Below, piece by piece: positions 3,121-60,387 of a DNA stretch of 64,000 nucleotides. This stretch comes from Tepidamorphus gemmatus. GTDB lineage: Bacteria; Pseudomonadota; Alphaproteobacteria; Rhizobiales; Tepidamorphaceae. The translations under genes and the position numbers were made by a program. The notes beneath the pieces were generated by a model. It was not told where the DNA came from. It worked only from the letters and a program-made list of their open reading frames with translations, and searched no databases. The stretch is taken from positions 310,001-374,000 of the forward strand of contig NZ_SMAK01000001.1 of NCBI RefSeq assembly GCF_004346195.1, read 5' to 3'. How positions within the stretch are numbered: position 1 is the stretch's first letter; each line of letters opens with the position of its first letter.

Positions 3121-4173
3121 TCAGTTGCGGGGGAACGGCCAGAGCTGGAACGCGGCCCGCAGCACCGCCCATCGGTGTGCGAGGCCGCGCGGCTCGAAGA
3201 TCAGGGCGATGAGGATGGCGGCGCCGAGCGCCACCGAGGTCAGCGCGAACAGCATGCCGCCGCTGGCGGCACCGCCGGCGTGCAGGATCGCGGTCGCGCC
3301 CCAGTGCAGGCCCTCCTGCACAGCCGTGATGAAGACGACACCGAGGATGGCACCGACCGGGCTGTGGATGCCGCCGACGATCAGCATGCCGAGGTACCAG
3401 ACCGAGTCGAACAGGGTGAAGCTGTCCACCGTCACGAACTGGAGGAAATACGCGGTGCAGGCACCCGCGACACCGGCGAACAGCGATCCGGCGAAGAAGG
3501 CGAGGATCTTCATCTTCAGCACCGGGATGCCCATCACCTCGGCGACGATGTCGTTGTCGCGCACCGCCATCAGCGCGCGGCCGAAGCGCGAGCGCGGCAG
3601 GTTGAAGGCGGCAACCGTGAGGATGGCGACGAGGATCAGCGCGAAATAGTAGAGCTGCGTCGGGCTCGACAGCCGGATCCCGGCGATGCGCAGCGGCTCG
3701 ACCGGCATGCCGACGAGTCCGCCGAGCCAGCTCGACGGCAGCGCCAGGATGATGATCGGGAACATCACCTGGGCGGCAAGCGTGGTCAGAGCCAGGTAGA
3801 AGCCCTTCACCCGCGCGGCCGGCAGCGCGAACAGGATCGAGACGAGCCCGGTGATGACGGCGGCGAGCGGCACCACCACGAAGACCGGGAGCCCGTAGCC
3901 GGACAGCTTGGCGGCGGCAAAGGCGCCGATGCCGACGAAGGCCGACTGCGCGATGTTGATCTGGCCGGCCATGCCGACGGTGGCGAACAGCCCGTAGACC
4001 GCCATCAGCGTGATGAACATGTGGGTGAACACGCCGAGCAGGTAGTTGCCGGCGAACTGCGGCATGACCAGCAGCAGCACGACGAGGGCTGCCGCCCAGA
4101 TCTGCGCGCGGCGGGTCTTCAGAATGCGCGCCTCTGCGGCGTAGCGCTCGAAATGGATTCCGGTCGGCAGCAT
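3121..4173 (-). CDS. livM: Branched-chain-type ABC transporter permease (LivM-like)
   Basis: 350 residues with about ten hydrophobic segments and the LivM permease core, including the GQINIAQSAFVGIGAF segment and the loop VRDNDIVAEVMGIPV, where the ATPase couples. It forms half of the transmembrane pore. The start sits 3 bp after the livH stop with GAGG upstream, so the two permeases are probably translationally coupled. The C-terminal tail ends in a basic and aromatic stretch. Family assignment is secure; ligand unknown. Confidence 0.93.
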   Translation of the reverse strand: MLPTGIHFERYAAEARILKTRRAQIWAAALVVLLLVMPQFAGNYLLGVFTHMFITLMAVYGLFATVGMAGQINIAQSAFVGIGAFAAAKLSGYGLPVFVVVPLAAVITGLVSILFALPAARVKGFYLALTTLAAQVMFPIIILALPSSWLGGLVGMPVEPLRIAGIRLSSPTQLYYFALILVAILTVAAFNLPRSRFGRALMAVRDNDIVAEVMGIPVLKMKILAFFAGSLFAGVAGACTAYFLQFVTVDSFTLFDSVWYLGMLIVGGIHSPVGAILGVVFITAVQEGLHWGATAILHAGGAASGGMLFALTSVALGAAILIALIFEPRGLAHRWAVLRAAFQLWPFPRN

Positions 4174-25400: not shown

Positions 25401-25539
25401 GGTCTCGGGGGCAGGATCCCCGTCATCGGGGCCGAGCAGGGTGCGCGCCGGGATCGGGATGGCACGACCCTCGTTGTGTCCCGATCCCGGGCCGGCCGCT
25501 GGCCCGACGGTATGGCGGAAGGAGAGGAAGCCATCGAGA

Positions 25540-34123: not shown

Positions 34124-34223
34124 ACATGGTGCACTGGCATCCCGCCGCACTCCACCCTCATCCCGGCCGCAGCGGATCGGAGAGCCCGGCCCGGGAGCCG
34201 AAAACCGGTCGAGGCTCTGCCCG

Positions 34224-34262
34224 CCCGATCCCGGCACGGCCTTTGCGGCCGTCCGGAATGAC
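34224..34262. repeat. Dispersed GC-rich repeat, copy at 34.2 kb
   Basis: Anchor pattern CCCGATCC (34224-34231), 22 bp, CGGAATGAC (34254-34262). The same two anchors with the same 22-bp spacing are found inside the 5-oxoprolinase gene at 58129-58167. The whole 34124-34299 gap is repeat-like. The internal CGGCC...GGCCG pairs suggest a folded RNA or DNA hairpin. Confidence 0.55.
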
Positions 34263-34299
34263 GGGGTGCGGATGCTGGTCAATGGATCGCGAGGCATAG

Positions 34300-35409: not shown

Positions 35410-35506
35410 GGATGGTGGCCGTCGCAGACTTGCCGGACCACACTTGCCGGGTCATCGCGGCCGGGCGGAGCAAGACCTTGGATTGGAACGCAGTAGCCGT
35501 CGTCTT

Positions 35507-35550
35507 CGCCCGATCCCGGATCGGCCTGTCAGCCGTCCGGGGCGACGCGG
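35507..35550. repeat. Dispersed GC-rich repeat, copy at 35.5 kb
   Basis: Carries CCCGATCC with a near-palindrome CCGATCCCGGATCGG (35510-35524), then 21 bp to CGGGGCGAC, which corresponds to CGGAATGAC of the 34.2-kb copy. It lies in the 175-bp gap between the ATPase gene and the apionate-lactonase-like gene. Its core recurs in the opposite orientation at 37645-37657. Confidence 0.5.
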
Positions 35551-37564: not shown

Positions 37565-37644
37565 ACGGGCGGCGCTGCGACCGCGCCAATCATGACGGTC
37601 TCGCGCCCCCATCCCCGCGTCAGCCACGACGTCGCGGTCGCGGC

Positions 37645-37657
37645 GATCCGGGATCGG
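37645..37657. repeat. Dispersed repeat core, inverted copy
   Basis: GATCCGGGATCGG is the exact reverse complement of the 13-bp core CCGATCCCGGATC at 35510-35522. It sits in the 183-bp convergent gap between the lactonase-like gene and a GntR gene, with more GC-rich repeat-like sequence on each side (37592-37735). Confidence 0.45.
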
Positions 37658-37747
37658 CAGGGCAGGGCGGCCGTTTGGAGGCAACTCCATCCTGGCTCTA
37701 CGTGCTTGCCGGGCTCCGGTCGGGATGACACGAGTTCTTCGGACAGT

Positions 37748-55838: not shown

Positions 55839-58800
55839 TCACGTCTGGGCCCGACCGTAACCCCCGCCGCTGGGGGTCTGGATGATGATCGCATCGCCGG
55901 CCGCGCAGACCGTCTGGTCGCAGCCCTGGAGCGGCTCTACGATGCCGTCCCTGCGGCGGACCCAGTTGGCACCGCATTCGCCGGGCGAGCCGCCGTCGAG
56001 CCCGAAGGGCGGCACCCGGCGGTGACCGGTGAGCAGCGAGACGTCCATCTCCTCGAGGAACCGGATGGTGCGCACCGTGCCGTCGCCACCGTTCCACCTT
56101 CCCCTGCCGCCCGATCCGCGGCGGATGTGGAAATCCTCCAGAATGACGGGATAGCGGGTCTCCAGCACCTCGGGGTCGGTCAGGCGAGTGTTGGTCATGT
56201 GGGTATGGACGGCGGACGTGCCGTCGAAGCCGGGACCTGCCCCTGAGCCGCCGCAGATCGTCTCGTAATACTGATAGGTGGCGTTGCCGAAGTTGAGGTT
56301 GTTCATGGTCCCCTGCGCAGCCGCCATTGCGCCAAGCGCGCCGAACAGCGTATCGGTCACCGCCTGGCTCACCTCGACGTTGCCCGCGACCACGGCAGCC
56401 GGGAACTTCGGTGCGAGCATGCAATCCTCGGGTATGATGATCTCGATCGGCTTGAGGCAGCCCGCATTCATCGGGATGTCGTCGTCGACCATGCAGCGGA
56501 ACACGTAGAGCACCGCCGCCCGCGTCACCGGCTGCGGCGCGTTGAAATTGGACGGCTGCTGTGGAGAGGTTCCGGTAAAGTCGACCGTCGCCGAGCGGGC
56601 CGCCTTGTCGACGGTGATGGCGACACGGATCACCGTGCCCTGATCCATCTCGTACGCGAACGAACAGTCGTGCAGCGCGTCGATGAAGCGGCGGACGCTC
56701 TCCTCGGCATTGTCCTGCACATGGCGCATGTAGGCCTGCACCACGTCGAGGCCGAAATGTGCGACCATCCGGCGCATCTCCTGCACGCCCTTCTCGTTGG
56801 CGGCGATCTGGGCGCGCAGATCCGCAATGTTCTGGTCGGGGTTGCGGCAGGGCCAGGGACCGGAGGTGAGGAGCTCGCGCAGCGCCTCCTCCTGGAACAC
56901 GCCACGCTCGACGAGGCGGAAATTGTCGATGACGACGCCCTCCTCCTCGATCGAGGTGGCGCGCGGCGTCATCGACCCCGGCGCCTTGCCGCCGACATCG
57001 GCGTGATGTCCACGCGAGGCCACCCAGAACAGGATGTCGCCCGCCGCCATCCCCTCCCTTTCCTCCTCCGCGTCGGCCGCGTCGCCATTCCGGCTTGCCG
57101 CTTCACCCGCGCCGGGAGGACGGTTCGTGCGGGAGTCGGCGAATACCGGCGTCACGACGGTGATGTCGGGCAGATGCGTGCCGCCGTTGTAGGGGGCGTT
57201 CAGCACGAAGACGTCGCCGGGCCGGATCACCGGGTTCTGCTCGATGACCGCCATCACGCTCCGGTCCATCGAACCCAGATGCACCGGCATGTGCGGGGCG
57301 TTGGCGATCAGCGCGCCGTCCGGGGCGAAGACCGCGCAGGAAAAGTCGAGGCGTTCCTTGATGTTCACCGAGTAGGCGGTCTTCTGCAGGGTGACGCCCA
57401 TCTGTTCGGCAATCGACATGAACAGGTTGTTGAATACCTCCAGCATCACCGGATCGGCATCGGTGCCGATCGCGACGCGCTTCGGCAGGGCGACGACGCG
57501 GCGCATCACGAGGTGCAGCTTGGGTGTGATCTCTGCCCGCCAGCCTGGCTCCACGACGATGGTGTTGTGCGCCTCGACGATCAGCGCCGGGCCGTCCACC
57601 GACTGGCCGGCCTGAAGCCTTGCCCGACCATAGACGTGCGCGTCGTGCCAGGCGCCGCCCGAGAAGAACCGCGTCGCGGCAACCGGCTCGGCCGGGGCAG
57701 AGCTGACCGGATGGTCAGGTTCCTCGCGCCGAGCCCCGCCGCCGGCACTCTCCACCTCGACCGCCTCGATCACGATCGCCTTGCCGGGGGTCACGAAGCC
57801 GAACTGCTGGCGGTGGGCGGCCTCGAAGGCGGCGGTCATCGTCGCCGGGTCGGCGAGATCGACGACCAGCGGCGTGTCGGTGCCGGCATAACGCAGATGC
57901 GCCCGGGCCACGGTCGTGGCCTGGTCGGCGGCGATGCCCTGGGAGGCGAGTTCGGCAAGCGTGTCGGCGGTCAGCCGGGCGGCGACGGCCTCCACTTCGG
58001 CCATGACGCTGCCCGTCGGATGTCCGTCCCCGTCATCCTGGGCGGCCTCCTCCGTCTCTTGCGCGGCATCGCGGACGGCCGCGGGCCGTTCCGGCATCGG
58101 GAGGTGTCCGTGGTCATCCTCGCGATCTCCCGATCCAGCCCCTTCGCTGCACCGTGGGCGGAATGACTCGGTGGAGGGGACGCGCGATGGCAGTTCCCGC
58201 CCGATCGCCTGGGTGCGGTTGGCGCGGATATCGGCCAACCCCATGCCATAGGCGGACAGGATGCCGGCGAGCGGATGGATCAGCACCGTCTTCATGCCGA
58301 GCGTGTCGGCGATCAGACAGGCATGCTGGCCGCCGGCGCCACCGAAGCAGGCCAGCGCATAGTCGGTGACGTCATAGCCGCGTTCGACCGAGATCTTCTT
58401 GATCGCATTCGCCATGTTTTCGACGGCGATCTTCAGGAAGCCTTCGGCGACCTGCTCGGGCGAGCGGCCGTCGCCGATCTCGGCAGCCAGCGTCGCGAAG
58501 GCCGCACGCACCGCCTCGAGGTCGAGCGGCTGGTCGCGGCCGGGTCCGAAGATCCTCGGAAAGAAGTCGGGGCTGATCTTGCCGAGCATCACGTTGGCGT
58601 CGGTCACCGCGAGCGGTCCGCCGCGCCGGTAGCATTTCGGTCCGGGGTTGGCGCCGGCAGACTCCGGCCCCACGCGGAAGCGCGCGCCGTCGAAGTGCAG
58701 GATCGAGCCACCGCCGGCCGCGACGGTGTGGATGTGCATCATCGGCGCCCGCATCCTGACCCCGGCGACCTCGGTCTCGAAGCTGCGCTCGAATTCGCCG

Positions 58801-59756
58801 TCAAAGTGCGACACGTCGGTCGAGGTGCCACCCATGTCGAAGCCGATGATCCTGTCGAACCCGGCCATCCGGCTGGTCTCGACCGCACCGACGACGCCGC
58901 CGGCCGGGCCGGACAGGATCGCATCCTTGCCCTGGAACAGGTCGGCCGCCGTCAGTCCGCCATGCGACTGCATGAACATCAGGCGGGGCGAGGCATCTTC
59001 CCCCTCAGCAGGGAGTTTGCCGGCAAGACCGGCGGCCCGACCTGTCGTCCGTTCGCCCGCTCCGAGCTCGGCCGCCACCTGGTCGACATAGCGCCGCAGG
59101 ATCGGCGAGAGGTAGGCGTCGACGACAGTCGTGTCGCCGCGGCTGACCAGCTTGATGAGCGGCGCCACCTCGTGGGAGACCGAGACCTGTGTGAAGCCGA
59201 TCGCGCGGGCGAGCGCGGCAAGCTCGCGTTCGTGATCGGGATAGCGGTAGCCATGCATCAGCACGATCGCGCAGGCGCGGATGCCGTCGGCGAAGGCCGC
59301 CTCCAGTTCCACCCGTGCGGCGTCGGCATCGAGCGGTACCAGAACCTCGCCGTCCGCCTTCAGCCGCTCGTTCACCTCGACGACACGCTCGTAGAGCAGT
59401 TCCGGCTTTATGATGTGACGATCGAACAGGCGTGGGCGGGCCTGGTAGCCGATCTCGAGCGCGTCACGGAAGCCGCGGGTGATGACCAGCAGCGTCCGGT
59501 CGCCCTTGCGCTCCAGCAGGGCGTTGGTGGCAACCGTCGTGCCCATCTTGACCGTGGCGATCCTGCCGGAGGGAATCGGCTCGCCGTCGGCAAGGCCGAG
59601 CAGGTCGCGGATGCCCTGGATCGCGGCGTCGCGATAGGCCTCGGGATTCTCGGACAGCAGCTTGTGGGCGAGGATCTGGCCGTCCGGGCGGCGCGCCACG
59701 ATATCGGTGAAGGTGCCGCCACGGTCGATCCAGAAATCCCACTTCGCCGCCGTCAC
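55839..59756 (-). CDS. oplAH: 5-Oxoprolinase (ATP-hydrolysing), full length HyuA-HyuB fusion with three extra in-frame segments
   Basis: 1305 residues from a GTG with GGGGAG at 8 bp. It hydrolyses 5-oxoproline to glutamate with ATP, or acts on hydantoins. The N-terminal HyuA part starts [20 protein letters not shown], with the [14 protein letters not shown] ATPase motif; the HyuB part starts near residue 765 ([15 protein letters not shown]) and holds [14 protein letters not shown]. Three segments interrupt conserved blocks: about residues 229-259, 519-579 and 873-903. They are Gly/Glu/Arg-rich and their DNA resembles the dispersed repeats. The usual length is about 1210-1290. It is divergent from the MarR gene. 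Confidence 0.9.
58129..58167. repeat. Dispersed repeat inside the 5-oxoprolinase gene
   Basis: CCCGATCC (58129-58136), 22 bp, CGGAATGAC (58159-58167): both anchors and spacing match the intergenic copy at 34224-34262 exactly. It falls in the second extra segment of the coding region. CGTCATCCTGGGCGG at about 58030 looks like the other end of such a unit. The frame stays open through the repeat. Confidence 0.5.
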
Positions 59757-59792
59757 CCCGATCTCCCCCGGATCACCTGCCACGTTGCAAAC

Positions 59793-59809
59793 ATCGACGA
59801 ATCGTCGAT
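59793..59809. promoter_or_regulatory. Perfect 17-bp palindrome between 5-oxoprolinase and MarR genes
   Basis: ATCGACGA-A-TCGTCGAT is an exact inverted repeat with 8-bp arms around one central base, in the 91-bp divergent gap, 37 bp from the oplAH start and 38 bp from the marR start. MarR-family dimers bind such short palindromes, so this is the likely operator for both genes. The AT-rich AAAATGTCAATG adjoining it may be a -10 region. Confidence 0.65.
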
Positions 59810-59847
59810 AAAATGTCAATGTAGATTCCGACCGACAGGATCCGACG

Positions 59848-60387
59848 ATGCCGGAGATGCCGCCGCACGACACCGCCGCCGGTGGTCTCGGACCGATCGT
59901 TTCCTCCGCGCATCTGGCTGCCGGTGCCATGCCGTCGCTGTCGGAATTCGAGTTCGGGCTGATCCTCGCCTCGCATGCCTTCCATCGCTGGATGGTTCGC
60001 TGCATGCAGGCGGCGGGCGTCGAGGGCCTGTCCGCCTTCGACGTGCTGGTGCTGCATTCCGTCGCTCACCGCGATCGCCCGAAGAAGCTTGCCGACATAT
60101 GTCTGGTCCTGAATGTCGAGGACACCCACCTCGTTACCTACGCGGTGCGCAAGCTGGAGGCGCAGGGCCTCGTTGTCAGCGGCCGGGCAGGCAAGGAGAA
60201 GACCGTCGAGATCACCGAGCGTGGCGCTGCCGCCTGCCGGCGCTACCGCGAGATCCGCGAGGGACTGCTGGTGCGTGCGGTGGGCAGCGTCGGCTTCGAC
60301 GAGACGGCGCTGAGCAACATCGCGGCGCAGCTTCGCGCGCTGTCCGGTCACTATGATCAGGCGGCCCGCTCGGCGGCGTCGCTGTAA
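59848..60387 (+). CDS. MarR-type winged-helix regulator, divergent from 5-oxoprolinase
   Basis: 179 residues. A winged helix ([40 protein letters not shown]) lies in a helical dimer frame. The N-terminal 30 residues are variable. AGGA precedes the start. The palindrome at 59793-59809 lies between it and oplAH, so it most probably represses that gene and itself. It would respond to an oxoproline, hydantoin or similar ligand by inference. The stop is 9 bp before the converging chaA stop. Confidence 0.82.

Follow-up and report, generated by a model that had tools for sequence, protein, structure and literature searches.

A 58-codon in-frame insert in the 5-oxoprolinase gene of Tepidamorphus gemmatus carries a copy of a dispersed palindromic repeat

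The 5-oxoprolinase gene (oplAH) of Tepidamorphus gemmatus encodes a block of residues between two conserved parts of the enzyme, and the question that we address here is where this block comes from. A sequence-only reading of the locus had proposed that the coding region took up a dispersed intergenic repeat that kept the frame open, in the manner of the Rickettsia palindromic elements (RPEs), because a pair of short anchors with a 22-bp spacing was seen both in the gene and between genes. The window, i.e. the whole stretch of DNA analysed (64,000 nucleotides; G000:C1:310001-374000), is part of a source genome (G000) of 3,775,092 bases in 32 contigs, and positions are given in window coordinates throughout unless a contig or locus is named.

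Results

OplAH has a linker insert that its homologues lack

The gene and the insert occupy the following positions.

55839 to 60005, minus strand: oplAH open reading frame, 5-oxoprolinase/hydantoinase, a HyuA-HyuB fusion of 1388 amino acids (Pfam and homologue matches).
58011 to 58184, minus strand: in-frame insert at site 1 of OplAH, 58 codons, residues 608-665 (alignments with homologues).

The translated frame contains the Pfam domains Hydant_A_N (residues 91-269), Hydantoinase_A (289-596), Hydant_A_C (673-825), and Hydantoinase_B (851-1385), and the matches of most homologues begin at about residue 85, which places the probable true start near 59750. The nearest homologues at named loci come mostly from Hyphomicrobiales, with best segments that are mostly 58-67% identical, and the homologue in genome G004 is 84% identical on both sides of the insert. 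As determined by alignment, residues 608-665 (174 bp) have a counterpart in none of 20 relatives, and, in a 102-sequence alignment, site 1 holds 58 residues in the window OplAH compared with six or fewer in all 99 of the other homologues that cover it (a count that leaves out the window OplAH, L197, which is in the wrong frame, and L026, which stops short of site 1). The segment is thus missing from near relatives and from distant 5-oxoprolinases alike, as expected if the sequence-only reading was correct. Because the homologue set (101 genomes) holds none of the window organism's own genus, the empty site is known from other genera.

Site 1 is the linker between Hydantoinase_A, which extends to residue 596, and Hydant_A_C, which starts at residue 673. 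In an AlphaFold2 model of the HyuA half (27 sequences; mean pLDDT 73.9), residues 609-664 had pLDDT values below 50 and were flanked by a confident strand and a confident helix; seven further segments of the model, one of them at the loop referred to below as site 0, also had values below 50. By this model, the site-1 linker is probably floppy and the inserted segment, which is charged, is probably disordered. Of the earlier proposal that the extra residues probably form a surface loop, the loop itself agrees with the linker position and the pLDDT below 50, and the position at the surface is inferred.

The insert contains a copy of a dispersed element of about 105 bp

The element copies and related stretches in the window are as follows.

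58064 to 58168, plus strand: element copy in oplAH, two arms in inverted repeat with tag ends outward (covariance model R1 and nhmmer).
58129 to 58167, plus strand: right arm of the element, the anchor pair CCCGATCC-22-CGGAATGAC of the sequence-only reading (pattern search).
58030 to 58045, plus strand: stretch in the insert and outside the modelled copy that is like the outer end of the element, CCGTCATCCTGGGCGG (direct reading).
34156 to 34263, plus strand: element copy outside genes, used for comparison in the sequence-only reading; R1 61.4 bits, no frame coding on both sides.
35450 to 35547, minus strand: element copy; R1 37.1 bits, no frame coding on both sides.
25421 to 25517, minus strand: element copy; R1 41 bits, no frame coding on both sides.
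37604 to 37730, plus strand: probable element copy; nhmmer 28.7 bits, absent from the R1 list.

Both anchor pairs were located where the sequence-only reading had seen them, at 58129-58167 and 34224-34262, and the 3,775,092-base genome contains no other exact match. When up to two mismatches were allowed, the genome contained 23 matches, compared with none for a reversed control pattern, which argues against the pair occurring by chance throughout the genome. Within the window, four matches with up to three mismatches were found against 0.68 expected, and one of 100 shuffles reached four. The sites of the 23 genome matches reveal a larger unit, mostly of 98-108 bp and in one case of 123 bp, with the layout CGTCATCCCGG...CCGGGATCGGG - spacer - CCCGATCCCGG...CCGGGATGACG. 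The repeat in the gene is therefore real but larger than first described: the copy at 58064-58168 measures about 105 bp, beyond the 39 bp that the anchor pair covers, and lies within the insert at 58011-58184 (residues 608-665).

For a profile, we used 16 of the 23 places. The other seven were the in-gene copy, the overlapping duplicates L010 and L015, and four places that in our judgement did not represent the unit (L007, L009, L011, and L023), of which L007 later matched the profile at 23.3 bits. With this profile, the oplAH copy scored 34.9 bits (nhmmer, E 1e-9, at 58062-58167), compared with a best score of 18.3 bits in 60 dinucleotide-shuffled windows (3.84 Mb). The left half of the element, which is without anchors, on its own gave 13.7 bits at 58066-58106 against a shuffle best of 13.2 bits (60 windows), a match that looks weak by itself, yet correctly placed. 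The covariance model R1, made from the same 16 places and so again without this copy, scored the oplAH copy at 49.1 bits (E 1.9e-5 genome-wide). We note that this copy is diverged and ends in CGGC and AGTC, not in CGTC. Greater hairpin decay in the oplAH copy than in intergenic copies was considered and rejected, as the fold z-scores are -1.5 for the former and -1.4 for the intergenic copy at 34156-34263. The element is open in 3.9 of the six frames vs 3.4 of six for mononucleotide shuffles, a slight excess. A search of Rfam with seven sources produced a single match at E <= 1, which was far under the gathering score.

About 69 of the 174 bases of the site-1 insert fall outside the modelled element. 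The stretch at 58030-58045, judging by its likeness to the element's outer end, could be part of a nested or tandem half-copy, and no internal repeats were found at 57950-58260.

Copies within genes are rare

Using R1, we detected the element in at least 69 distinct places of G000 at E <= 0.01; these were merged by hand from 113 matches, both strands counted, after scoring of 150 among 13,102 candidates. The claim that a dispersed repeat lies in a coding region with the frame left open is borne out by this distribution together with the absence of the segment from the 20 relatives and the 99 homologues. Location within genes was judged by an open frame across the copy and coding character of both flanks under a codon model trained on 113 long frames. 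By this test, two of the 69 copies are within genes, namely those in oplAH (codon-model scores of 0.68 and 0.68 beside the copy) and in a cobN-like gene (0.50 and 0.64); the number refers to clear cases, with borderline places such as L085 and L082 outside it. Further, R1 matches were found in at least eight of 41 genomes at E <= 1e-4, and 57 copies were picked in other genomes (22 in G007, 20 in G006, 12 in G040, and three in G004), two of which are within genes, in the OplAH gene of G007 and the ileS gene of G040. In-gene copies of the element are rare, since none of the 20 picked from G006 is within a gene.

The same element is in frame in other genes

The second in-gene copy of G000, at G000:C1:467068-467169 (L123 2001-2102), adds about 49 residues to the product of a gene that we name cobN-like from its sequence, and the insert is absent in all 14 usable relatives (16 loci were compared; L244 had no usable protein and L241 was in the wrong frame). 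In G007, which belongs to the same family as the source organism, a well-kept in-frame copy (78.9 bits; L026 467-568, G007:C440) is present in OplAH, at a different loop, site 2. The short OplAH site-2 piece of G004, a congener of G007, starts like the element of G007 on direct reading. The copies at OplAH site 1, in cobN, and in the OplAH of G007 share one frame of the element; a common reading frame for every in-gene copy was rejected, because the ileS copies are in another frame.

The ileS copy is from a genome of another bacterial family: G040 has the element in frame in its isoleucyl-tRNA synthetase gene (L294 1001-1108), in the loop before the IWTTTPWT strand. We compared this loop in 13 genomes of one genus (L294 and L305-L317), of which G110 and G112 were left out of the alignment as the gene is split over contigs. 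The loop is empty in five species (G113, G081, G107, G106, and G109). Three species have this element there (G040 by R1, G108 and G105 by direct reading), and two have another palindromic repeat (G111 and G114, direct reading); in G104 the loop has a 28-residue segment matched to neither repeat. PDB structures of isoleucyl-tRNA synthetase align with both flanks and have a gap at the insert. The ratio pN/pS was 1.08 in the insert vs 0.18 in the flanks for the three genes with the element, and 0.90 vs 0.25 for the two genes that hold the second repeat, on small counts (synonymous differences of 15.5 and 11.3, with pairs pooled). These ratios indicate that the ileS inserts evolve near neutrality, i.e. 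that the frame is held and the inserted residues drift, to the extent that such counts allow. Inspection by eye revealed no convincing target-site duplication at the ileS and cobN sites.

Other loops of OplAH also take up inserts

The window OplAH has a second insert.

57039 to 57131, minus strand: insert at site 2 of OplAH, about residues 959-989 (alignments with homologues).

This insert is acidic and of about 31 residues, at a site that is a 5-residue turn in 75 of the 87 rows matching the pattern (100 rows, of which 13 had no pattern match and were left out). Positions 57076-57125 are weakly like the left half of the element (nhmmer 10.5 bits, E 0.015), a score equalled or exceeded by eight matches in 60 shuffled windows, and a fold test of the site-2 stretch gave no stable fold. 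The likeness is suggestive only, and the insert may be a half of the element that has decayed.

Across 101 OplAH sequences (L197, in the wrong frame, is excluded from these counts), at least eight extra residues are present at site 2 in 11 (the window included) and at site 0 (window residues 314-334) in 24, about seven of the latter repeat-like by eye, and near residue 722 in four. In other Alphaproteobacteria, some of the loop inserts belong to different families of dispersed repeats. Two loops of the Mesorhizobium prunaredense OplAH (L169 4706-4840 and 6545-6700) carry a similar dispersed repeat in frame, the second with 73 matches in the M. prunaredense genome and 81 in that of M. helmanticense; L159 has two in-frame inserts of another palindromic repeat (2393-2494 and 3503-3607), the second with 45 matches in its own genome; and the site-2 insert of G002 has 16, itself counted. 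All of these match counts include both strands per place and partial matches. The repeat of the L159 insert also matches the site-0 insert of G004. As a separate observation, the OplAH inserts of L147, L153, L181, G021, G068, and L162 are palindromic or tandem in appearance, and site 2 of L059, L070, and L162 contains tandem ARSAEGATGK-like repeats of varying length (G021, G068, and a Bauldia MAG).

The element resembles CGTC-tagged REP dimers

CGTC-tagged REPs are described as occurring mostly in Alphaproteobacteria, mostly as HH dimers with the tags outside, and as having no known dedicated transposase (Di Nocera, De Gregorio and Rocco 2013, PMC3733652). The same paper describes them inside genes, tRNA synthetases among them, and suggests that in-gene units may occupy flexible linkers or loops; it reports different REPs at about one site of recB in two Xanthomonas species and differing sites in other genes, and it counts two RPEs of Rickettsia conorii, RPE-4 and RPE-6, among the CGTC repeats. 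Its main text mentions none of oxoprolinase, hydantoinase, cobaltochelatase, CobN, and isoleucyl. Our element is like these dimers in several respects. Its tags point outward, with a consensus that starts CGTCATCCCGG and finishes CCGGGATGACG, as in the HH arrangement; an accepted tag is present at 90 of 138 ends (CGTC 72, CCTC 10, and TGTC 8); AT follows the tag at 100 of 138 ends, and the median stem is 8 bp by a crude arm search, compared with REP stems of 8-9 bp that start with AT. Counted by copy, 32 of 69 have an accepted tag at both ends and 58 of 69 at one end or more, and the oplAH copy has one at neither. The element differs in its median loop of 14 nt vs 4-5 nt (the crude loop search gave a meaningless negative value for 17 of the 138 ends), although other loop lengths are allowed in some Bradyrhizobium CGTC-1 and a few CGTC-3 repeats (PMC3733652), and in the 3-nt tail, which is mostly CCA in the REPs and is CGG at 62 of 138 ends of the element, where CCA is outside the eight commonest. 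By these features, we describe the element as a CGTC-REP-like dimer of a new or variant family and do not assign it to any of CGTC-1 to CGTC-4.

The RPEs (Ogata et al. 2000 and 2002) are described as palindromic repeats of 105-150 bp that lie in frame in conserved genes and are translated (PMC2229807, PMC10969869), with nearly half of those of R. conorii within genes (PMC10969869). The likeness to RPEs drawn by the sequence-only reading stands, by description, in that the palindromic insertions in oplAH, cobN, and ileS are in frame and absent in relatives; unlike RPEs, the element is rarely in genes (2 of 69 copies in G000). In Caulobacter and Brucella, CIR elements (Chen and Shapiro 2003) are reported to carry GANTC and to be about 110 bp long, and they are said to be outside genes and to have stops in all frames; they and in-gene elements including RPEs have been reviewed by Delihas (PMC2229807). 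The element is like CIR in its length of about 110 bp, its two arms with a linker, and its dispersal in Alphaproteobacteria, but membership in CIR was rejected, as GANTC is found in one of 16 element copies.

The element likewise shares its build, two inverted REPs with a spacer, with the REPINs of the REPIN/RAYT system. Mobilisation of this kind was rejected, because none of eight carrier genomes (G000, G004, G006, G007, G040, G011, G105, and G108, with G006 and G007 about 85% complete) had a match to the Y1 transposase (PF01797); the single match among all 14 genomes searched was in a non-carrier, G008, and controls matched in five of the 14. Among the literature matches listed, no title links isoleucyl-tRNA synthetase, oxoprolinase, hydantoinase, or cobaltochelatase with repeats, and we make no claim of priority.

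Discussion

Overall, we conclude, with a probability of about 0.88, that a dispersed element of about 105 bp was inserted in frame into a linker of oplAH and is translated and tolerated there while drifting neutrally. In the mechanism that we propose, an element with two inverted palindromic arms and outward CGTC-like tags would have entered oplAH, presumably as a unit, at the linker that joins Hydantoinase_A to the C-terminal domain in the HyuA half. As the insertion would have left the frame intact, translation of the element would yield a segment that is charged and probably disordered. Selection on the remaining enzyme, which is presumably still functional, would hold the frame open, and the insert itself would be neutral and drift. 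The element would thus be a selfish, non-autonomous palindromic repeat, and the linker would be a place that tolerates it.

An alternative source of the extra residues would be a linker of ordinary variability, lengthened by slippage or small duplications, whose likeness to the repeat is due to chance in a GC-rich genome. The extended site 0 of 24 of 101 sequences, as well as the portion of the insert that is not element, would suit such an origin. We regard it as very unlikely, given a score of 34.9 bits against 18.3 for the best shuffle, an E value of 1.9e-5 genome-wide, the sole exact anchor pair apart from the intergenic one, the short linker in 99 of 99 other homologues, and the occurrence of the element in frame in further genes; the lack of internal repeats at 57950-58260 is, moreover, contrary to slippage. 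Less likely still, in our judgement, is co-option of the insert, either as a contact loop of OplAH or as an RNA hairpin acting on the mRNA. The insert does persist in frame and is charged, and intergenic REPs are thought to work as RNA elements (PMC3733652), but it is predicted to be without structure, is missing from all homologues covering site 1, and folds little better than shuffles (z -1.5); comparable inserts in ileS have pN/pS near 1, and that loop holds different repeats by species. The least probable account is that oplAH is a pseudogene or dispensable paralogue in which an insertion would be without consequence. Nine match pieces to OplAH in G000 mean that paralogues may exist, but an account of this kind sits badly with a frame of 1388 codons without a stop, four intact Pfam domains, 84% identity to G004 flanking the insert, and coding scores of 0.68 on both sides.

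Insertion of the dispersed element into oplAH may be one case of a wider pattern, for which we consider the odds to be even: a few loops of conserved enzymes (sites 0 and 2 of OplAH and the isoleucyl-tRNA synthetase loop before IWTTTPWT) would be recurrent landing pads for unrelated palindromic repeats in different Alphaproteobacteria, with insertion in frame, neutral drift, and loss or replacement on the time scale of a genus. If this is true, in-gene repeats would amount to a natural insertion scan of the most permissive points of proteins and would provide a steady supply of disordered protein segments in Alphaproteobacteria outside Rickettsia. In-gene palindromic repeats were known from Rickettsia, and REPs in genes were known from other bacteria (PMC3733652); what is added here is a series of empty and filled sites within one genus and one loop that holds different repeats by species. 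Such a series offers a measure of how frequently selfish repeats turn into protein, for how long they persist, and at which sites proteins tolerate them, and, in annotation, inserts of this kind account for odd charged segments in conserved enzymes.
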